Source of the DNA: an uncultured Roseburia sp.
Lineage (GTDB): Bacteria; Bacillota; Clostridia; Lachnospirales; Lachnospiraceae
Direction: 5' to 3'
NCBI GenBank assembly: GCA_947246475.1
Contig: CAMXSH010000021.1
Coordinates: 1-37,906 of the forward strand
DNA length: 37,906 nt
Below are positions 7,349 through 20,645 of the stretch, piece after piece. The translations under genes and the position numbers were made by a program. Position 1 is the stretch's first letter; every line of letters begins with the position of its first letter. Under the pieces are notes generated by a model. That model had not been told where the DNA came from. It made no database searches and saw only the letters and a program-made list of their open reading frames with translations.

Positions 7349-7377
7349 TTGACATAATTGTAACATTTTTGTAAAAT
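7349..7377 (+). promoter_or_regulatory. Sigma-A-type promoter of the cysDNC-ASST operon
   Basis: TTGACA (7349-7354), a 17-base spacer, then TAAAAT (7372-7377). Transcription would start near 7384, leaving a leader of about 135 bases before the cysD start. The leader holds a hairpin with arms CAAGTTGC (7453-7460) and GCAGCTTG (7464-7471). I see no known riboswitch. Confidence 0.7.
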
Positions 7378-7518
7378 ATAACATTAGTATGACAACAGGA
7401 TCAAAAAATTTTGCCCAAGACATTATATAATAAGTTCTGAGGGACTTGTTAGCAAGTTGCTTTGCAGCTTGGCATGGGTAAAAATTATGATAAAATAATA
7501 AAAATTGGAGGAAACGCT

Positions 7519-8400
7519 GTGGACCATTTGGATATGTTGGAGTATAAGAGCGTTCATATTTTGCGGGAGGCATACAGTGAACTGGGAAACCTGTGTATGC
7601 TCTGGTCGATCGGAAAGGATAGTACAGTTCTTCTCTGGCTTGCCAGAAAGGCTTTTTTTGGACATGTTCCGATTCCCCTCGTACATGTGGACACCCATTT
7701 TAAGATCAAAGAGATGATTGAATACAGAGACCGTCTGGCGGCAGAGTGGAATCTGGATATGATTTACGGAGAGAACACTGAGGCGCTGGAGAAAAAAGCT
7801 ACGTTCCCGGATGGAAATGCCACCCATCTGGAGTGCTGCAAATCGCTGAAAACAGAAGCTTTGACCAATACTCTCAATGCCAGCTGGCCCCGTTACCGCT
7901 TTAATCACGGGAAGGGAGTTTACGAAAAGGACGTCAACATTGAGCCGTATACTGGTGTGATCGTCGGCGTCCGGGCGGACGAGGAAGGAAGCAGATCCAA
8001 AGAACGCTATTTCTCGCCGAGAGATAAAAATAATGACTGGGATGTGGGAGACCAGCCTCCGGAATTCTGGAACCAGTATAAGACTGATTTTGCACCGGGC
8101 ACCCACGTGCGCGTGCATCCTTTGCTGGACTGGACGGAGCTGGATATCTGGGAGTATATCGAAAGAGAAAATATTCCTGTTGTCCCATTGTATTTTGACC
8201 AGGGAAATGGAAAGCGTTACCGCTCGCTGGGGTGTGCACCCTGCACTGGTACGGTAGATTCCACAGCAAAAAATGTAAGAGAGATCATAGAAGAATTAAA
8301 AACCGGAAAATTTGCCAATATCGCTGAGAGATCCGGGCGCGCCCAGGATAAAGAAGGTGGCGGCGGTCTGGAAGAACTGCGCAAAGAAGGATACATGTGA
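7519..8400 (+). CDS. cysD: Sulfate adenylyltransferase subunit 2 (CysD)
   Basis: 293 residues from the GTG at 7519, chosen because GGAGG (7507-7511) stands 7 bases upstream and the protein then begins [19 protein letters not shown], as CysD proteins do; the longer frame from 7462 adds a non-homologous 19 residues. The PP-loop motif SIGKDS lies near residue 36 in the ATP-pyrophosphatase fold. With CysN it makes adenosine 5'-phosphosulfate (APS) from sulfate and ATP. First gene of the operon with cysN, cysC and a sulfotransferase. The last codons lie inside one arm of an inverted repeat that fills the gap to cysN. Confidence 0.95.
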
Positions 8401-8520
8401 CAAAGTCTGTCATGCGGCCGGAGCAAATTTATTTGCGACCGGACATATGACGGACGTACATCATGAGCGAAGGGCGAAGCCCGGAGCGAATGTGTTGTGC
8501 GCAGCACAGGTCACATGTAT
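8391..8520. repeat. Palindromic intergenic element with 11-bp terminal inverted repeats between cysD and cysN
   Basis: ATACATGTGAC at 8391-8401 is repeated as its exact complement at 8510-8520. Between lie three hairpins: a long one at 8405-8455 (GTCTGTCAT/ATGACGGAC, CCGG/CCGG, GCAAAT/ATTTGC), GGGC-GAA-GCCC at 8472-8482, and TGTGTTG-TGCG-CAGCACA at 8491-8508. The TGA stop of cysD is part of the left arm. No protein-coding capacity. This resembles a small nonautonomous mobile or REP/BOX-like element inserted within the operon; it could also act as an RNA stabilising or attenuating structure. Confidence 0.65.
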
Positions 8521-8558
8521 GGTAAGATTGTCAAGAAAAGGATTGGAGCAATTGCGAT

Positions 8559-10352
8559 ATGAATAAAAAAGAAGACATGAATATAGTCATTGTCGGTCAT
8601 GTGGATCACGGTAAGAGCACCCTTATGGGACGCCTGCTGGCAGATACCGGTTCCCTTCCCGAAGGAAAGTTAGAGCAGGTAAAAGAGACCTGCCGCCGAA
8701 ACTCAAAGCCGTTTGAGTATGCCTTTTTGCTGGATGCCCTAAAGGACGAGCAGTCCCAGGGAATCACGATTGACACGGCGAGATGTTTTTTTAAGACGGA
8801 AAAGAGAGATTACATCATATTAGATGCGCCTGGGCATATCGAATTTTTGAAGAATATGATTACAGGAGCTTCCCGCGCCCAGGCAGCACTACTTATGATC
8901 GATGCCAAAGAAGGTGTTCAGGAAAACTCCAGGCGGCATGCCTATATGCTTTCCATGCTGGGAATCCAACAGATCGCCGTAGTCATCAATAAGATGGATC
9001 TGGTGGATTACAGTCAGGAAGTATATGAGAAGGTAAAAAAAGAGTATCTTGAATTTTTAAAACAGATTAATATTACTCCGAAGTTTGTTCTTCCTGTTAG
9101 TTCCTTCCAGGGAGACAATATCGTAAAGCAGAGCGATAAAATGCCATGGTACGACGGGATGTGTATTCTGGAGGTGCTGGATGCCTTTGAATGTGAGGAA
9201 GAGCACGACAAGCAGCCGTTCCGTATGCCAGTACAGGATGTATACAAATTTACGAGAAATGGGGATGACCGGAGAATTGTGGCGGGTACCATCGAGACTG
9301 GTACGATCCGCGCCGGACAGGAGGTTATTTTCTATCCTTCTGGCAAAAAGAGCCATATTAATAAAATAGAGTCATTTAATACCGATCCCATCAAAGAGGG
9401 CAAGCCGGGCATGGCGATCGGATTTACCATGAAAGAGCAGATTTATATAACCCGTGGAGAGATGATGGCCATCGCTGGCGAACCACAGCCCAAGACAGCA
9501 TCGCGGATTTCAGCTAACATTTTCTGGCTTGGAAAGAAAGATTTTGTTCCAGGAAGATTATACTATCTGAAGATTGGCGGCGAAAAAGTCAGGGTAGAGG
9601 TGGAAGAGGTCAAGGGAGTCATCGATTCCTCCAACCTTTCTTCCACAGACACGAAGCAGGCGGTAGAGAAGCATGAGGTGGCAGAAGTTATCCTAAAGAC
9701 GGATAAACCCATTGCTTTTGATACGGTAAAGGAGAGCGCCGGCACAAGTAGATTTGTTATTGTGGACAATTATGAGATCGCTGGAGGCGGAATCATAACC
9801 GAAGCGTTGGAAGATGAAGAAAGCGAAATCAGAAGCAGTGCCATGCTCCGCAATTATAAATGGGAGACTGGGGAGATCAGCCTGGAATCCAGAATCGAAC
9901 ATTATGCCCAGAGACCGGAGCTCATCGTGCTGACCGGGGAAAAGAATACCGGTAAGAAAGATCTGGCAAAGGCATTGGAAAAAAGTCTTCTGGATAGTGG
10001 CAGATATGTGTACTACATGGGGATCGTATCCTATCTTTATGGCGTAGGTGCTGATACGAAGTCTGGTGGCGATGAGGATCACAAGGAGCAGATACGGCGT
10101 TTTGCAGAAGTGGCAAATCTCATGCTGGATGCAGGAATGATCTTGATCATTACAGCGACCAGACTGACGGAGAGTGACCGCAAGATCATGAAGGCAGTGA
10201 TCCAGAAAGATATGGATATTTTCTGGATCGGTGATGAGGTAAGTACAGATATTAAAATGGATATGAAGCTGAAGGACAGCGAATATGATTATGAAAAAAA
10301 TATCAGAAAGATCCGGACGCTTCTTAAAGATAAAGGAATCCTGTTCCGTTGA
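8559..10352 (+). CDS. cysN: Sulfate adenylyltransferase subunit 1 (CysN) with a degenerate APS-kinase-like C-terminal domain
   Basis: 597 residues, longer than a plain CysN. GTPase motifs: G1 GHVDHGKST near residue 13, G3 DAPGH near 88, G4 NKMD near 143; then EF-Tu-like beta barrels to about residue 420. Residues from about 450 ([22 protein letters not shown]) align with the P-loop start of APS kinase, but the P-loop reads GEKNTGKK in place of GLSGSGKS and the DGDN motif is replaced by MGIV, so kinase activity is unlikely. The GTPase drives APS synthesis by CysD. An intact cysC follows, its ATG overlapping the TGA by one base. GGAG is 10 bases from the ATG. Confidence 0.93.
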
Positions 10353-10972
10353 TGGATCGGGAGATGGAGAAAAGGATGGCTTCAGACAATAAAAACGAAA
10401 ATATTATCTGGCATGATGGAAAAGTATCCTATGAAGACCGATGCCGGGTTCTGGACCAGAAAGGAATCGTAGTATGGTTTACCGGGCTCTCAGGATCTGG
10501 CAAGTCCACGGTGGCAGTGGAGTTAGAACACATGCTCAACGAAGCCGGAAGGGCGGTATACCGTCTGGACGGGGACAATATCCGATGTGGTATCAATTCA
10601 GATCTGGGGTTCAGTGACGATGACCGCAACGAAAATATCCGCCGTATCAGTGAGATCGCAGCGCTGTTTCAGGATGCAGGAGTGATCACACTGGTGTCCT
10701 TTATCTCTCCTTTCCGGGCGATGCGTCAGTTCGCCAGAGAGAGAGCGGGCGAGGGAAACTTTATAGAGGTCTACGTGAATACGGATTTTGAGACCTGCAG
10801 GCAGCGGGATCCGAAGGGATTGTATAAAAAGCAGATCCAGCAGTTTACCGGGAAGGACTCTGTCTATGAGGAACCGCTGGATCCAGAGATCGTACTGGAT
10901 ACGGTAGATCATACTCCTTATGAATGTGCAATGCAGATTTATGAGAGAATATGGGGAGAGAGGCATGGGTAG
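10352..10972 (+). CDS. cysC: Adenylylsulfate kinase (CysC)
   Basis: 206 residues from the ATG that overlaps the cysN stop (TGATG). An ATG at 10376 with GGAGA five bases upstream is a good alternative start and would remove eight residues. P-loop GLSGSGKS at about 45-52, DGDNIR at about 73-78, and the family signatures LGFSDDDRNENIRR, SFISPF and DPKGLYKK are all intact. It phosphorylates APS to PAPS using ATP in the cytoplasm. It is translationally coupled to cysN before it and to the sulfotransferase gene after it, whose ATG lies 8 bases inside cysC. Confidence 0.95.
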   Translation: MDREMEKRMASDNKNENIIWHDGKVSYEDRCRVLDQKGIVVWFTGLSGSGKSTVAVELEHMLNEAGRAVYRLDGDNIRCGINSDLGFSDDDRNENIRRISEIAALFQDAGVITLVSFISPFRAMRQFARERAGEGNFIEVYVNTDFETCRQRDPKGLYKKQIQQFTGKDSVYEEPLDPEIVLDTVDHTPYECAMQIYERIWGERHG

Positions 10973-12980
10973 TTTAGTCAAAAAGCTCAAACGGGAGATA
11001 AAGCGCAGGAAACGGGAATTTGAAAATGCCAGGGACGCCAGGGTGAAAAAAACCTATCGCAGCAATGGCGGGACGATCACAGTCCGGCCAGAGGCATGGG
11101 TGATCCGGGGATCGGAAGCCTATGAAGAGGTTTTCCGGCGGGAACAGGCTGATTCCTTTAAGACCAATATTAAGACGAAGAAAATGTATTCTCTCGTTTC
11201 TCAGGCAAAAGACTGGTTTTTGGAATTACAGCTGCGAAGTGAAAAATATACCTTTAACAATATGCTGGCAGTGGTAAATCCCTTCGGGGAGGCGCCATTG
11301 ACAGCTCTTGTGTTGTTTACCACACTTATGGATTATGGCGTGCGTGTGACCGTGGAAGGAGATACAGAGGATACCAGCTTCATATCGGAATATCCACCTG
11401 CCAAACGTCATCGTATTCCTATTCTGGGACTGTATCCGGGCCGGAGCACCGACGTGGTCATTGAACTATTGGATGAAAACGGCCAGGTGTGTGACAACCG
11501 CAGATTTCCCCTTATTACAGAGTCTCTTCCAGAAGACTTGAAAGACATCATAACAGTAAAAAAGAAAAATGACCAGGCGGCATTTAAAAATATCCTGATT
11601 GCAGGGGGCATAGACATCAAGCCCTGTGTGTTTGATAAAGAGGGGCAGATTCGTTATTATCTGCGGAGAAAGCCAAAAGGGTATGGTATATTTCCGTTGT
11701 CAAAGGGGCGTTTTCTGTTTATGGAACGGGAAATTTCAGCCCCATCTTTCACCAATCCCCATTCTGTCCAAATGTATGACATGGATTATCTTGGCAGGGT
11801 TGGAAAAACTTATCTTGTGAAGAATGGAGCCCATCACACCGTGGAGGAGAAGACGCCAGGAGGCAATATCCTGACAGCGGGAAACAGCCTGGAAGAACAT
11901 TCTGAGGATCTGATCCTGGAGCTGAACCGGGAAAATGGAGAGATTGTGCACCAGATCAAGCTGGGTGATCTATTTGATGAAACATATCAGGATATGATGG
12001 ATTGGGCGCACATTAATTCAGCATCCTACGATGAAGAGCAGGATTCTATGCTGGTATCTATGAGAAATATTCATTCTGTGGCATCCTTTGACTGGAACCT
12101 GGACGAGATCCGGTGGCTTTTTGCCGATCCCCGGTTCTGGGAGGGCACAAAAATGGCAGATAAGCTGTTAAAACCTGTGGGTGAAGTGCCGTGGTTCTAC
12201 CAGCAGCACGCTGTTTTTGAGGTGGAGCTGGAGGAAAAGAGGCAGGATATCAAACACATCATGGTCTTTGACAACCACTGGCACAAGCGGCGGAAAGTAA
12301 AATTTTTTGATAAAGATAAGTTAAGTTATATCAGTTTTTATGAGATCAACGAAAAAGAAAAGACGGTAAAATTGTATAAGCGTTTTTCATGTCCCAAATC
12401 GAAAATCCGTTCCAACGCAATTTTCGATAAAGACACCAGACATCTATATGCCATGGCTGGTTCTCTGGTACCAGAGATCGAGGGCAGCCTGGGGCTGGTC
12501 CGCGAATATGATTTTGATTCCATGGAAGTGCTCAGTGAGTATTATGTAAAGCCGGGCTTTTTCCGGGCACATGAATTTTTGCCGGATATGGTGTCTCTGT
12601 CAAAGACACTGGTAAAAAATACAGACTACCTGGGTGGAGACCTAAAACGTCCGCAGCGGTTGGCAGAGGACGAAGCAGAAGGTCTGGATTTCCAAGATGC
12701 TCCAGGTGTAAAGGATTCCTCCGTATTTTACCGGATGCAGGAAGACCTTCTCTATATCCATGAAATGGACCATGCTATCGGGGCGGTTTATCTCCGGGGG
12801 AATGAAGGGGTCTGGAAGGTGGATTTTTCAGATACCTGGCAGACCATGAAGACCTTTGAGGAGGCGGATTACCGGATCGCCATGTGGCTGGACCAGCTGC
12901 CCCTGGATCAGTATGAGTTGTATATCCTGCTCCATGGTGAATTACAGAATACAGGTAAAAAGCTCACGAAGCAGAAATAG
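10965..12980 (+). CDS. Arylsulfotransferase (ASST family), apparently cytoplasmic
   Basis: 671 residues from the ATG at 10965 (GGGGAGAG upstream), overlapping cysC by 8 bases. After an N-terminal basic helix and a beta domain (about 90-185) comes a beta-propeller-like region with the ASST pattern: AHHTV (H290/H291), DWAHINS (H349, N351), SMRN (R367), QQHAV (H415). In the characterised uropathogenic E. coli enzyme, as I recall, H252, H356, N358, R374 and H436 form the active site; the H-x-N spacing and the 18-residue step to Arg are the same here. ASSTs move sulfonate groups between phenolic molecules. No signal peptide is visible, unlike the periplasmic enzyme. Placement after cysDNC suggests PAPS or a PAPS-derived aryl sulfate as donor; this is inference. 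Confidence 0.88.
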   Translation: MGSLVKKLKREIKRRKREFENARDARVKKTYRSNGGTITVRPEAWVIRGSEAYEEVFRREQADSFKTNIKTKKMYSLVSQAKDWFLELQLRSEKYTFNNMLAVVNPFGEAPLTALVLFTTLMDYGVRVTVEGDTEDTSFISEYPPAKRHRIPILGLYPGRSTDVVIELLDENGQVCDNRRFPLITESLPEDLKDIITVKKKNDQAAFKNILIAGGIDIKPCVFDKEGQIRYYLRRKPKGYGIFPLSKGRFLFMEREISAPSFTNPHSVQMYDMDYLGRVGKTYLVKNGAHHTVEEKTPGGNILTAGNSLEEHSEDLILELNRENGEIVHQIKLGDLFDETYQDMMDWAHINSASYDEEQDSMLVSMRNIHSVASFDWNLDEIRWLFADPRFWEGTKMADKLLKPVGEVPWFYQQHAVFEVELEEKRQDIKHIMVFDNHWHKRRKVKFFDKDKLSYISFYEINEKEKTVKLYKRFSCPKSKIRSNAIFDKDTRHLYAMAGSLVPEIEGSLGLVREYDFDSMEVLSEYYVKPGFFRAHEFLPDMVSLSKTLVKNTDYLGGDLKRPQRLAEDEAEGLDFQDAPGVKDSSVFYRMQEDLLYIHEMDHAIGAVYLRGNEGVWKVDFSDTWQTMKTFEEADYRIAMWLDQLPLDQYELYILLHGELQNTGKKLTKQK

Positions 12981-13763
12981 ATTTTTGGAGATAATACCCT
13001 TTAGCTGCCATCGTGGAACCGGTGTTTTCAGGAAACCGGTTTCGATGGTAACAGAGGGTATTCTTTTTTCATAGACGCACCAGTCTCCAAAGCCTCCGGC
13101 GGGCCGGGTGTCTTTCGTGTTTTCGACAAGACGGTATCCCGTCACCCTGTGGGCGACAGCTGCCATGGTGGTGATCTGGCTTTTCAGGGAGCCATGGACA
13201 TCATAGTCATAGAAGATGAGGTTGCCACGGGAGTGATAGTGTATGATGCCCAATGGATTTGTGAGCCCGTTTACGAATTCCATAAGACAGCGGGTCTCCT
13301 GCTGGTCACCGGCGCTAACCCCAGGATTTCTTTTTGCCCGGTCGGGAGACTTGCCAAAACCACTGGGGAAATTTCGGTTCAGGTCCACGCCCCGTCCATT
13401 TTCTTTCCAGGTTTTTGCTTCTGTGGACATGGAGATACAAACACCATCCGGATTTGTCATCGGCAGAAAGATCACGCAGATCTCTTTCCAGAGCTCCCGG
13501 TAGCAGCCTTCGTAATGTTCCAGATAATATTCCATTATCTGCAGGAGAAGAGTGGTGTTAATGTATTCCCTGCCGTGGATTGAGGCGGTTAAGACAAATT
13601 GGCCAGGCGCCTCGGAGGATCCCAGGCTGCAGGCGTAAAGCTGGCGTTTGCCGTGGGTAATACCCAGTGAATTTACCCTAAAATATTCCGGTGGATACTG
13701 TTTTTCCAGCTCCCGGATACGTTTTTCCATTGTCGTATAAGTATAGAGAGAATTTTTTTTCAT
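12942..13763 (-). CDS. M14-family zinc carboxypeptidase
   Basis: 273 residues. Zinc ligands are visible as H63-x-x-E66 in SIHGREY and a third His in IIHYHSRG (about 178); the substrate-binding segment DLNRNFP and the catalytic Glu in VTIETGF (near residue 247) are present, so the enzyme should be active. Members cut C-terminal amino acids or, as in gamma-D-glutamyl-diaminopimelate peptidases, cell-wall peptides. No signal peptide is seen, so it may work on imported peptides. AGGTAATTC precedes the ATG. Its last 39 bases overlap the 3' end of the convergent sulfotransferase gene, and that operon's terminator lies in its coding sequence. Confidence 0.9.
   Translation of the reverse strand: MKKNSLYTYTTMEKRIRELEKQYPPEYFRVNSLGITHGKRQLYACSLGSSEAPGQFVLTASIHGREYINTTLLLQIMEYYLEHYEGCYRELWKEICVIFLPMTNPDGVCISMSTEAKTWKENGRGVDLNRNFPSGFGKSPDRAKRNPGVSAGDQQETRCLMEFVNGLTNPLGIIHYHSRGNLIFYDYDVHGSLKSQITTMAAVAHRVTGYRLVENTKDTRPAGGFGDWCVYEKRIPSVTIETGFLKTPVPRWQLKGIISKNLFLLRELFTCIL
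12993..13069 (+). terminator. Intrinsic terminator of the cysDNC-ASST operon, inside the convergent M14 gene
   Basis: Nested complementary arms AATACCCT (12993-13000)/AGGGTATT (13055-13062), CCATCG (13008-13013)/CGATGG (13043-13048) and GGAACCGGT (13015-13023)/ACCGGTTTC (13035-13043, one mismatch) form a long stem, followed by CTTTTTT. It begins 12 bases after the sulfotransferase stop. Confidence 0.7.
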
Positions 13764-13864: not shown

Positions 13865-15121
13865 TTATGCCAGAGTTTTGTGATTTATGAGCTGTGCTGT
13901 GAGGTGGGAGAAAAGGCAGACAATACAAAGAGGAAGCAAGTTTCCGTAACAGCAGGTGAATTCGCATATGAGAAATACCCCGGTGACGGGGGCACCGAGA
14001 GCAGCGGTAAAAAAACCGGACATGCCGCCCAGAAGAAAGCAGGCGGGAGAAAAGCCGATCCCAGGAAATAGAGAGCAAAGAGCCAGTCCATAGAGCTGAC
14101 CGATACAGGCGCCCACTGTCAGCAGAGGAAATATGGTTCCGCCGGGCAGTCCCGAACCAGAGGAGATCATCGAGAAGAGATATTTTCCAAAGAGAAGCAG
14201 CAAAAGGGTGGTATATGGAACGGCTGGCGTCTTGAGAACAGCGAGCATATTATTTCCGGATCCTGTGATGGCGGGGAAAAAATAACACACAACACCGGTC
14301 ATCAGAAAGAGGAGGCTCCACAACAGACCATGGATATGCTTATTGTACTTTGAAAGCAGTTTTGCATATCGTATCAGGGAGAAGGCATAATATTTTCCAG
14401 TGATACCTAACAGGATACCCAGCAGGGCAAGTGCAGGGTAATAGTAATACTGCTGCAGAGGGATGATCGTATCCAGAATGGGAGCAGTTCCGAAGATTAA
14501 ATGGCTCACCAAAAAAGCAGATAGAGAGCCAACAGCGATGGTCAGTACAGATATCGCCCTTGTTGCCGGAAATTTTTCCAGGGTAAATGCCAGACCGGAT
14601 ACCGGGGCACAAAAAAGTGCAGACAGCCCCGCCCCGGCGCCGGTACAATAGTATTCTGAGGGAGTGAGGTGCAGCTGACGGTGTCTGCGGATGGACTGCA
14701 GAAAACGGCAGACACCTTTTCCAGACATAGTTCCGATCTCTACGGCAGATCCAGTTTTTCCCAGAGAAAAACCTGCCAGGATACACAGAGGGGCGGAGGT
14801 CAGTTTCACAAGAAGAACGGACCACCATCTGGCATCCGTGACGCCCCTGGCTTCTTCAATAAAATGAGAAACGCCGCCTCCCTCTGCCTTTGGTTCCAGG
14901 CAGATGCTCCAGTAAACAAAACGGGACAAGAGTAATAACCCTGCCCCCCAGGCGGCGTGATAGAGAAAACTGCCACTGTGAAGAGCCGGAATGATCACAT
15001 GATTAAGGGTATTATCACAGAAGTTCATGAATAAACGGAACAGACATATGATCAGTCCGGAGAAAATTCCCGTGACAAGCCCTGCGGATATTCTTAAAAT
15101 TATGTATTTCTTTTGTTTCAT
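13865..15121 (-). CDS. CLC-family chloride channel/transporter-like membrane protein lacking the gating glutamate
   Basis: 418 residues with 10 or more hydrophobic segments. CLC landmarks can be aligned: AEGGGVSHF (about 79-87) for GSGIPEV, GKTGSAVEIG (121-130) for GREGPTVQIG, CAPVSGLAFTLEKF (171-184) for NAPLAGILFIIEEM, and SGLPGGTIFP for GxFxP. At the position of E. coli ClC E148 the residue is Thr123, and at E203 it is Lys183. Those two glutamates gate chloride and carry protons in exchangers, so this protein may be an uncoupled conductance or have another substrate. GGAG precedes the ATG. The next gene on the strand is the M14 peptidase 101 bases on; the divergent neighbour is tmcAL with overlapping promoters. 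Confidence 0.85.
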   Translation of the reverse strand: MKQKKYIILRISAGLVTGIFSGLIICLFRLFMNFCDNTLNHVIIPALHSGSFLYHAAWGAGLLLLSRFVYWSICLEPKAEGGGVSHFIEEARGVTDARWWSVLLVKLTSAPLCILAGFSLGKTGSAVEIGTMSGKGVCRFLQSIRRHRQLHLTPSEYYCTGAGAGLSALFCAPVSGLAFTLEKFPATRAISVLTIAVGSLSAFLVSHLIFGTAPILDTIIPLQQYYYYPALALLGILLGITGKYYAFSLIRYAKLLSKYNKHIHGLLWSLLFLMTGVVCYFFPAITGSGNNMLAVLKTPAVPYTTLLLLLFGKYLFSMISSGSGLPGGTIFPLLTVGACIGQLYGLALCSLFPGIGFSPACFLLGGMSGFFTAALGAPVTGVFLICEFTCCYGNLLPLCIVCLFSHLTAQLINHKTLA

Positions 15122-18991: not shown

Positions 18992-20293
18992 CACCACAAC
19001 ATCTCCGATCAGTCGTATTGCCTCCCCAGGACTCTCCCCAAACTGATAGCAGCCCTCCAGCTTTTCAGCGGCAGCCTGGGCGAGTTCCAGTGAGGAAGTG
19101 TGGAGACAGGCAAGAGTGTCTCCTTCGGTCACATGGTCATTGACTTTGTGGCAGAGGACAATGCCGGCGGAAACGTCGATGTTGTCCTCTTTTCTGCTTC
19201 GCCCGGCTCCAAGGATCCCGGCGACAGTGCCAAAGCCTTCGGTATCCATGGCAGTGATATAGCCGGAGCGGGCAGCTTTGTATTCGTAGATAACAGCAGC
19301 CTGTGGCAGACGTTCCGGGTGTTCCATATAGGAAATATCACCACCCTGTTCTTGGACCATAGCGAGGAAGGTATTCCATGCACGTCCACTGTGTATGGCA
19401 TCTTCTGCCAGCATTCTGGCTTCTTCCACAGAAATCTCTTTTCCCAGGGAGATCATGTGGGAGGCGAGACAATAGCATACATCCATCAGGTCCTTGGGAC
19501 CATCTCCATGAAGAGCATGGATGGCTTCTTTTACTTCCAGGTTGTTGCCAATGGCAAAGCCAAGGGGTTCGTCCATGGAGGTCAGCTGTGCTACTGTGTT
19601 TTTTCCTGCCTTTGTACCGATGGTCACCATTTTGTGGGCAAGTTCCAGAGACTGCTGATAATCTTTGATAAAGGCGCCATTTCCTGTGGTTACGTCCAGC
19701 AGGATCTTATCACTGCCCGCCGCCAGTTTTTTGCTCATGATAGAGGCGGCGATCAGGGGGATGCTGTCAACGGTGGCAGTCACGTCCCGCAGGGCATAGA
19801 TCATCTTGTCGGCGGGCGCCAGTTCTCCGGTCTGGCCGTTCAGGCAGATCCCGGTATGCTGTACGGCATGGAAAAAATCCTCTGTGGAAAGATCTGTCCG
19901 GAAGCCGGGGATGGATTCCAGCTTGTCGATGGTGCCGCCGGTGAAGCCCAATCCCCGGCCGCTCATTTTCGCGATGGGGATGCCACATGCCGCGGCGATG
20001 GGACCGATGATCAGCGTCGTTTTGTCGCCGACACCGCCAGTACTGTGCTTATCGACCTTAATCCCAGGGATGGAAGAGAGGTCGTTGATCTGACCAGAGT
20101 CTCTCATTGCCAGTGTCAGTGTGGTTAGTTCCCGGTCGGAAAGACCATTAAAGCAGATCGCCATAAGCATGGCGGACATCTGGTAGTCTGGAATACTGCC
20201 GTCACAGTAGCCGCGTACCATATTCTTTATATCCGTATCGGATAGTTCTCTTCCTGTTTTTTTATTGTGTATAAGATCAACAAATCGCTCCAT
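18989..20293 (-). CDS. pdp: Pyrimidine-nucleoside phosphorylase (thymidine phosphorylase family)
   Basis: 434 residues. The family signature SGRGLGFTGGTIDKLESIPG is present near residue 110, with the phosphate-binding KVDKHSTGGVGDKT near residue 80 and the three-domain layout (alpha, alpha/beta, C-terminal PYNP domain near 345-434). It cleaves uridine, deoxyuridine or thymidine with phosphate to give the base and (deoxy)ribose 1-phosphate for salvage. AGGAGG precedes the ATG. No other nucleoside salvage gene is adjacent. A structured leader of about 145 bases precedes it and a terminator overlaps the stop codon. Confidence 0.94.
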   Translation of the reverse strand: MERFVDLIHNKKTGRELSDTDIKNMVRGYCDGSIPDYQMSAMLMAICFNGLSDRELTTLTLAMRDSGQINDLSSIPGIKVDKHSTGGVGDKTTLIIGPIAAACGIPIAKMSGRGLGFTGGTIDKLESIPGFRTDLSTEDFFHAVQHTGICLNGQTGELAPADKMIYALRDVTATVDSIPLIAASIMSKKLAAGSDKILLDVTTGNGAFIKDYQQSLELAHKMVTIGTKAGKNTVAQLTSMDEPLGFAIGNNLEVKEAIHALHGDGPKDLMDVCYCLASHMISLGKEISVEEARMLAEDAIHSGRAWNTFLAMVQEQGGDISYMEHPERLPQAAVIYEYKAARSGYITAMDTEGFGTVAGILGAGRSRKEDNIDVSAGIVLCHKVNDHVTEGDTLACLHTSSLELAQAAAEKLEGCYQFGESPGEAIRLIGDVVV

Positions 20294-20371
20294 ACGATGA
20301 AAACCTCCTTTTCTTCAAACATCCGAAATCCGCTGATTTACTGCGTAAATCGCTACTTTCTCATGCTAGGC

Positions 20372-20431
20372 GGGGCTCAATGTCAAATGCCTTATCATGC
20401 AAGCATGAAGGACATTTTGACCTTGAGACCC
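20372..20431 (-). promoter_or_regulatory. Long imperfect hairpin in the pdp leader
   Basis: Outer arms around CTCAATGTCAAATGCCT (20376-20392) and AGGACATTTTGACCTTGAG (20409-20427) enclose a perfect inner stem TCATGC-AA-GCATGA (20395-20408); pairing continues outward through GGG/CCC. A minus-strand extended -10 (TGC TATACT, 20447-20455) would place this in the pdp 5' leader. A second small stem, GATTTAC-TGC-GTAAATC, lies at 20334-20350. The structure could be a regulatory RNA or a small palindromic repeat. It may equally affect putP on the other strand. Confidence 0.5.
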
Positions 20432-20645
20432 TGGTATCATAAAGTTAGTATAGCATAAAATCTCCGGATATGGTAGAATATCCATAGTTGTTTATTTTAT
20501 TGGTAAACAGTGAAATACATATGTATGGAGGATCAGTGTGAAAAATAAACCAGTCAGCATATTTTTCACACAGCATTTTGTGTCTGCGCGCTGCTTGGCA
20601 CAAAGTTGCTTTATGAACAAGAAGCGGCGCAGAAAAGAGGAAATT

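Follow-up and report, generated by a model that had tools for sequence, protein, structure and literature searches.

Bacterial arylsulfotransferases (ASSTs or ASTs) are described as enzymes that work independently of 3′-phosphoadenosine 5′-phosphosulfate (PAPS) (PMC13426309, PMC11576661). The DNA analysed in this study (the window) comprises 37,906 bases, the entire contig C21 of the genome of an uncultured Roseburia sp. (G000; 2.66 Mb, 98 contigs, 93% complete), and carries an ASST gene at the end of a sulfate-activation operon, cysD-cysN-cysC-ASST. AssT of Escherichia coli CFT073 (3elq, 3ets; PF05935) shares its ASST domain, fold, and catalytic residues with the window protein. AssT, however, is a disulfide-bonded protein of the periplasm whose gene accompanies those of DsbL/DsbI (PMC13426309), whereas the window ASST has no signal peptide and is encoded among PAPS genes. 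An AssT insertion with two cysteines corresponds to a gap in the window ASST in a profile alignment, and in its structure model the latter has an additional N-terminal helix, which is basic, and additional strands at the C-terminus. The arylsulfate sulfotransferase of Eubacterium A-44, likened to the window protein by description only, has gut bacterial AST activity in common with it and, according to PMC13426309, does not accept PAPS.

PAPS-using sulfotransferases with PAPS genes of their own next to them are already known (PMC12135136, PMC9417993). The adp cassette of Streptomyces davaonensis likewise combines such genes with a sulfotransferase in one operon; AdpST is PAPS-dependent and its operon includes the polyketide synthase that makes the acceptor (PMC12135136), whereas the window operon consists of the PAPS genes and an ASST whose use of PAPS is putative. 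In the gut bacterium Bacteroides thetaiotaomicron, putative PAPS-synthesis genes lie beside a sulfotransferase gene in BT_0411–0416 (cholesterol sulfation), and BT_0416 was assayed with PAPS (PMC9417993), whereas the terminal gene of the window operon encodes an ASST with PAPS as a putative donor. For caprazamycin, the PAPS-dependent sulfotransferase Cpz8 loads an aryl carrier, a triketide pyrone, from which the ASST Cpz4 transfers the sulfate (PMC4257720, PMC6731281). The window locus has the architecture of the AdpST and BT_0416 cassettes, in that its PAPS genes and sulfotransferase gene appear to form a single operon. Neither a cysDNC-ASST operon nor an ASST in that role was evident in the open-licence literature searched.

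Gene content and proposed function of the operon

The four-gene unit proposed in the initial annotation was confirmed by reading of the DNA and by Pfam and NCBIfam family searches, and its order recurs in relatives. It consists of the following genes (APS, adenosine 5′-phosphosulfate):

7519..8400, + strand: cysD, sulfate adenylyltransferase small subunit, 293 amino acids (NF003587, 356 bits, cut-off 195)
8559..10352, + strand: cysN, sulfate adenylyltransferase GTPase subunit, 597 amino acids (TIGR02034, 374 bits, cut-off 336)
10352..10972, + strand: cysC, stand-alone APS kinase, 206 amino acids (TIGR00455, 232 bits, cut-off 139)
10965..12980, + strand: ASST, predicted cytoplasmic arylsulfotransferase, 671 amino acids (PF05935 and PF17425)

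The most likely start of cysD is the GTG at 7519, with GGAGG upstream; the CysD score was under TIGR02039's own cut-off, and CysN fell below the cut-offs of two narrower models. CysC has an intact GLSGSGKST motif and matched 3uie at 9.1e-53. The ASST matched PF05935 at 1.5e-48 (166 bits, gathering score 24.2); Pfam gave ASST families only, with no sulfotransferase domain (PF00685 or PF13469), and NCBIfam gave zero matches for this protein.

We interpret the operon as a dedicated sulfation cassette with a cytoplasmic ASST in the sulfotransferase role and PAPS as the likeliest donor, and assign this interpretation a probability of roughly 55%. The gene set, its order and recurrence, the lack of a signal peptide, and the conserved catalytic residues are read from the sequence; from there we infer a flux of PAPS into the ASST, with PAPS as direct donor. 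CysD-CysN would form APS from sulfate and ATP, and CysC would convert APS to PAPS. The ASST would then take the sulfuryl group onto H415 as a putative sulfo-histidine, by a ping-pong mechanism as in AssT, and pass it to an acceptor. Candidate acceptors at the inner face of the membrane are the precursor of a surface polymer, a lipid-linked precursor, and a phenol that partitions into the membrane. The definition of ASSTs as PAPS-independent can be put to a test with this clade, which is coupled to PAPS synthesis and occurs in a genome in which searches gave no conventional sulfotransferase. If the interpretation is true, certain Lachnospiraceae of the gut form sulfate esters starting from free sulfate, as Bacteroides is reported to do (PMC9417993), and their ASST could connect PAPS with inexpensive aryl sulfates.

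The CysN protein consists of a GTPase part (residues 1–425) and an APS-kinase-like domain without kinase motifs (residues 432–590, positions 9852–10328). PF01583 matched residues 454–557, where the P-loop is replaced by GEKNTGKKD and no DGDN is present. This domain is common to all 14 window-clade CysN proteins aligned, all 14 of whose loci have a separate CysC, and its ratio of nonsynonymous to synonymous substitution rates (dN/dS) of 0.03–0.07 corresponds to purifying selection. In the ATP sulfurylase of filamentous fungi, an APS-kinase domain binds the allosteric inhibitor PAPS (PMC3779200), and by likeness to this enzyme the motif-less domain of CysN may act as a feedback sensor.

Conservation in close relatives

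The complete order cysD-cysN-cysC-ASST was found in 10 of 14 close relatives, one of which (L014) has its ASST split over two frames, and is also present in G108, of the same genus. In two further relatives (L004, L007) contig ends cut the locus and the remaining genes stand in the same order. CysD identity was 88–99.7% in the 10 relatives with a cysD found beside cysN. The ASST of L011, from Eubacterium xylanophilum ATCC 35991, shares 67% identity with that of the window. The unit is under purifying selection, with dN/dS values against close relatives of 0.00 for cysD, 0.02 for cysN, 0.05–0.06 for cysC, and 0.04–0.05 for ASST; the conserved gene order together with the value for ASST indicates that the unit is more than a chance arrangement. 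ASST adjoins cysDNC in most relatives, so the association suggested by the initial annotation was not refuted on this point.

Two loci deviate from this order. In L010, the cysC-ASST pair stands alone at the site, where cysDN was lost, and the only cysD that searches of its genome gave belongs to the other type. In L013, the ASST has no cys genes beside it and has decayed, with H349, R367, and H415 lost; the corresponding genome (G300) carries its cysDNC at another site, linked there to another ASST paralog (68% to that on contig C44 of G000) and followed by sulfate-importer genes resembling Sbp-CysT-CysW-CysA, of which CysW scored below the cut-off of the equivalog TIGR02140 and above that of the subfamily TIGR00969. 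The pair retained in L010, the exchange of partners in G300, and the sulfotransferase-like partners at sister loci described below point to PAPS as the compound supplied. Additionally, ASST-like proteins of about 455 amino acids, from which the catalytic half is apparently missing, are encoded upstream of cysDNC on the opposite strand (L012:522–1889, L016:647–2032, L058:5438–6802).

Properties of the arylsulfotransferase

The modeled fold of the window ASST is of the AssT type, with an Ig-like domain and a beta-propeller, and a structure search with this model (VIA-align) returned AssT first and Cpz4 as the next protein. Profile alignment to 3elq placed the AssT catalytic residues as follows, and the N-terminal helix discussed below is listed with them:

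11835..11837, + strand: H291, equivalent to AssT H252
12009..12011, + strand: H349, equivalent to AssT H356
12063..12065, + strand: R367, equivalent to AssT R374
12207..12209, + strand: H415, equivalent to the transiently sulfated AssT H436
10968..11042, + strand: N-terminal basic amphipathic helix, ASST residues 2–26, a candidate membrane contact

All four catalytic residues are kept in the window ASST and, among the 11 relatives aligned (a set without L004, L005, and L014), in 10. For H415, the exception is L013, and this residue is also kept in 10/10 rows of exported or thioredoxin-linked ASSTs.

On a simple scale, the highest 13-residue hydropathy near the N-terminus was 0.50 in the window ASST compared to 2.05–3.32 in ten exported rows, and a signal peptide was seen in none of the linked ASSTs (L014 being judged in part). 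A cytoplasmic location of the window ASST, as the initial annotation had assumed for the pathway, is thus supported by its predicted lack of a signal peptide. The first 30 amino acids carry a net charge of +9 and have a hydrophobic moment exceeding that of the internal stretches compared, and the helix of residues 2–26 is present in the model with a predicted local distance difference test (pLDDT) score of 64–75. This helix, a candidate membrane contact, suggests that the ASST works at the inner membrane face. Sulfonation of a small molecule, as suggested in the initial annotation, is putative, and an acceptor bound to the membrane is no less plausible.

Three further ASST paralogs are encoded in G000 (L053:8859–10808, L054:6837–8837, L055:7403–9370); one, on contig C7, is lipoprotein-like and apparently exported, and two have no signal peptide. 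Because G000 also encodes the lipoprotein-like exported ASST, aryl sulfates formed within the cells could even carry sulfuryl groups for sulfation reactions beyond the cell.

Distribution in the Lachnospiraceae

The family sample consisted of 299 genomes, and 40 stretches were fetched. With cysN counted as present at a best match of ≥186 bits, it occurred in 55/299 genomes; ASST occurred in 39/299, with at most four candidates scored per genome, so that copy numbers are lower bounds. An ASST gene near cysDN was found in seven of the 55 cysN genomes (G000, G108, G082, G192, G248, G270, and G286), that of G248 being divergent. A total of 24 cysN loci was read; seven had been picked for ASST, and the unbiased set comprised the 17 fetched for cysN (two from G029). 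Within five genes, these 17 loci had a sulfotransferase-like gene (8), AprBA (2), an ASST (0), or none of these three (7); three loci end close to cysN. The members of fam68 and fam74 that were tested match PF13469 or PF00685; Pfam gave no match for the single fam15 protein tested, and this family is called sulfotransferase-like on the basis of a motif.

Alignment of 36 CysN proteins distinguished 20 with a fused APS kinase and its motifs, 14 with the motif-less domain, and two without an APS-kinase-like domain, which are those linked to AprBA (L077, L079). PAPS is considered the likeliest donor because sister loci in the family pair PAPS-forming cysDN with a sulfotransferase-like gene, and the ASST has that role in the window operon.

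In a tree of 35 ASST rows, all 16 linked rows fell within one set of 25 (support 98/98), and none of the 10 rows outside it was linked to cys genes. The linkage label changed seven times on this tree, at least four of the changes being forced by well-supported branches. The tree excludes the near copies L004–L007, the split ASST of L014, the proteins of more than 800 amino acids of L074/L075, and the 455-amino-acid proteins, and its linked rows include L010 (cysC only), L063 (four genes from cysN), and L071 (divergent). With relatedness ignored, cysN was present in 8/9 sampled genomes with the window ASST clade vs. 47/290 others (p 6.5e-6). Among the 13 genomes with a best ASST E-value <1e-60, nine had cysN, compared to 46/286 of the others (p 5.3e-5). 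Tentatively, and at slightly less than even odds, this cytoplasmic, membrane-hugging ASST clade of the Lachnospiraceae may now be PAPS-using, a second, unrelated fold joined on more than one occasion to PAPS-forming genes. With the same reservation, PAPS-dependent sulfation would then have a second fold, a beta-propeller with a covalent sulfo-histidine and ping-pong transfer, in the role that sulfotransferases have in sister loci.

A class-wide search found ASST in 8/391 genomes at an E-value of 1e-10, three of the eight within the family, and no cysDN match was found in the stretches from the five non-family ASST genomes (L118–L122). In other Clostridia, an ASST without signal peptide lies directly beside a thioredoxin-like gene, as judged by eye (L120:7900–10094, L121:8467–10670). 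At L063:6620–15242, the genes cysD-cysN-chrA-response regulator-histidine kinase-ASST lie on one strand (ChrA assigned by Pfam, the regulators by eye), and it is possible that this unit holds a sulfate importer and a sensor.

Alternative explanations

The main rival to direct use of PAPS, and the best-documented alternative, is a relay of the caprazamycin type, in which an unrecognized PAPS-dependent enzyme sulfates a cytoplasmic phenol and the ASST moves the sulfate to the real acceptor. Cpz8 and Cpz4 provide an exact precedent, and the rank of Cpz4 among the fold matches adds to it. Searches of G000 for the loader, however, found no sulfotransferase of the PF00685, PF13469, or fam15 types, other sulfotransferase families not having been searched. 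Searches of G108, G082, G248, and G270 gave no protein of the PF13469 or fam15 type either, and around the seven cysN genes linked to ASST, the three sulfotransferase-like families were absent up to a distance of five genes. We regard the relay as unlikely, if still a serious contender, and the lack of a loader among the types searched in G000 leans toward direct use of PAPS by the ASST.

It is less likely again that the ASST uses scavenged aryl sulfates without PAPS, or charges 3′-phosphoadenosine 5′-phosphate (PAP) from them, and shares the operon through sulfate metabolism only. Aryl sulfates are present in gut contents, a point in favor of scavenging. So is the use of aryl sulfate donors by published bacterial ASTs (PMC13426309). 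Against it, the ASST is predicted to be cytoplasmic, it is linked to PAPS-forming cysDN and not to the two APS-reductase-linked cysDN pairs, and the cysC-ASST pair was retained where cysDN had gone from the site.

That cysDNC feeds cysteine synthesis through reductases elsewhere in the genome, the ASST being incidental, is very improbable. Reductive sulfate assimilation was rejected as the purpose of the operon because searches of G000 gave neither CysH nor AprA, an outcome that also supports the earlier proposal that PAPS is likelier to serve sulfonation than cysteine formation. The PF01507 matches in G000 were CysD and a DUF3440 protein encoded beside a ParB-like gene, a pair that is presumably IbrA/IbrB. 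With the AprA-like protein of G029 as query (NCBIfam: adenylyl-sulfate reductase alpha), the best AprA-like match in G000 reached 42.8 bits compared to 820–1293 bits in four genomes having AprA; an earlier search with PF12139 was uninformative, as the control genomes gave no match either. Neither CysH nor AprBA is encoded within the operon, so the proposed role was not refuted by a co-encoded reductase set. The initial claim that reductases are lacking holds for CysH and AprA, and for sulfite reductase it holds within the window only: a NirA/sulfite-reductase-family open reading frame lies on contig C6 (L057:7219–8814), among ribosomal protein genes, and is the one finding in favor of a cysteine route. 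In the two reductive clusters read in the family (L077, L079), in contrast, the cysN next to aprBA has no APS kinase, and G286 keeps its AprA-like genes and its ASST-linked cysDN, the latter with an APS kinase, on different contigs.

The weakest alternative, a non-enzymatic regulator or scaffold, is highly improbable: the homologs of G192 and G286, without H291, H349, and N351, still adjoin cysDN-cysQ, but the four catalytic residues are intact in the window ASST and in all aligned relatives except L013, which has no adjoining cys genes. The apparent pseudo-ASSTs beside cysD-cysN-cysQ are located at L064:7746–9671 and L069:9521–11440. The presence of CysQ at these loci was dropped as proof of PAP release, since the ASST homologs there have lost catalytic residues and fam15-type proteins occur in both genomes.

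Several observations weigh against the sulfation cassette fed by PAPS. The published description of ASSTs as PAPS-independent, including the Eubacterium A-44 enzyme, is one of them, and clade comparison for a PAPS-pocket signature yielded just weak basic positions (82, 150, 179, and 442). ASST partners a minority of the cysDN pairs of the family, as it was found within five genes at 0/17 of the loci fetched for cysN. The linked homologs of G192 and G286 have lost the residues named above. Over all 39 ASST genomes, the association with cysN was not significant (11/39 vs. 44/260, p 0.074). ASSTs of another type without signal peptide, a state judged by eye from the N-termini, occur in eight genomes without cysN, and on these grounds we rejected, as a general rule, the idea that a PAPS cassette can be predicted from a missing signal peptide. 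No sulfate-binding protein match was found in G000, while 7/10 genomes searched exceeded the cut-off, and the reductase-family gene on contig C6 belongs here too. The cysN in the genome of L010, ended by a contig end, may carry its own APS kinase. The absences in G000 are provisional at 93% assembly completeness, and several of the compared genomes are drafts.

Transcription signals and neighboring genes

The following elements were recognized around the four genes:

7349..7377, + strand: sigma-70-like promoter, TTGACA-17-TAAAAT, 11/12 matches
8401..8558, + strand: cysD-cysN spacer of 158 bases, palindromic and repeat-like by eye in the DNA
12993..13069, + strand: terminator-like hairpin (12993–13062) followed by T6, absent from the pattern-scan list

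The promoter initially annotated is supported by the recurrence of its hexamers and spacing 5′ of cysD in 5 of the 12 relatives examined (L003, L005, L006, L008, and L009); the overall count of promoter-like sites was not above that of shuffled sequences (17 vs. 13.2 ± 3.9). The overlapping frames described earlier exist for cysN/cysC (1 base, TGATG at 10350) and cysC/ASST (8 bases, with the ASST ATG at 10965 within cysC and the cysC stop at 10970–10972), but cysD and cysN lie 158 bases apart. The corresponding gap measures 96 bases in L003, 275 in L005, 220 in L006, and 57 in L008, and the repeat-like elements in the spacer change length among close relatives.

A terminator-like hairpin lies after ASST, as annotated, with the correction that it sits within the 3′ coding end of a convergent M14 gene (12942–13763, − strand), which overlaps the end of ASST by 39 bases. 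Its 100-base fold has an energy of −38.8 kcal/mol, compared to −36.1 in L003, −30.9 in L008, and −39.1 in L009. The M14 carboxypeptidase gene and a CLC-type channel gene (13865–15121, − strand) recur downstream of ASST in several relatives. Further along the window, a Clostridiales-1 small RNA was recognized at 20272–20439 on the − strand (69 bits).

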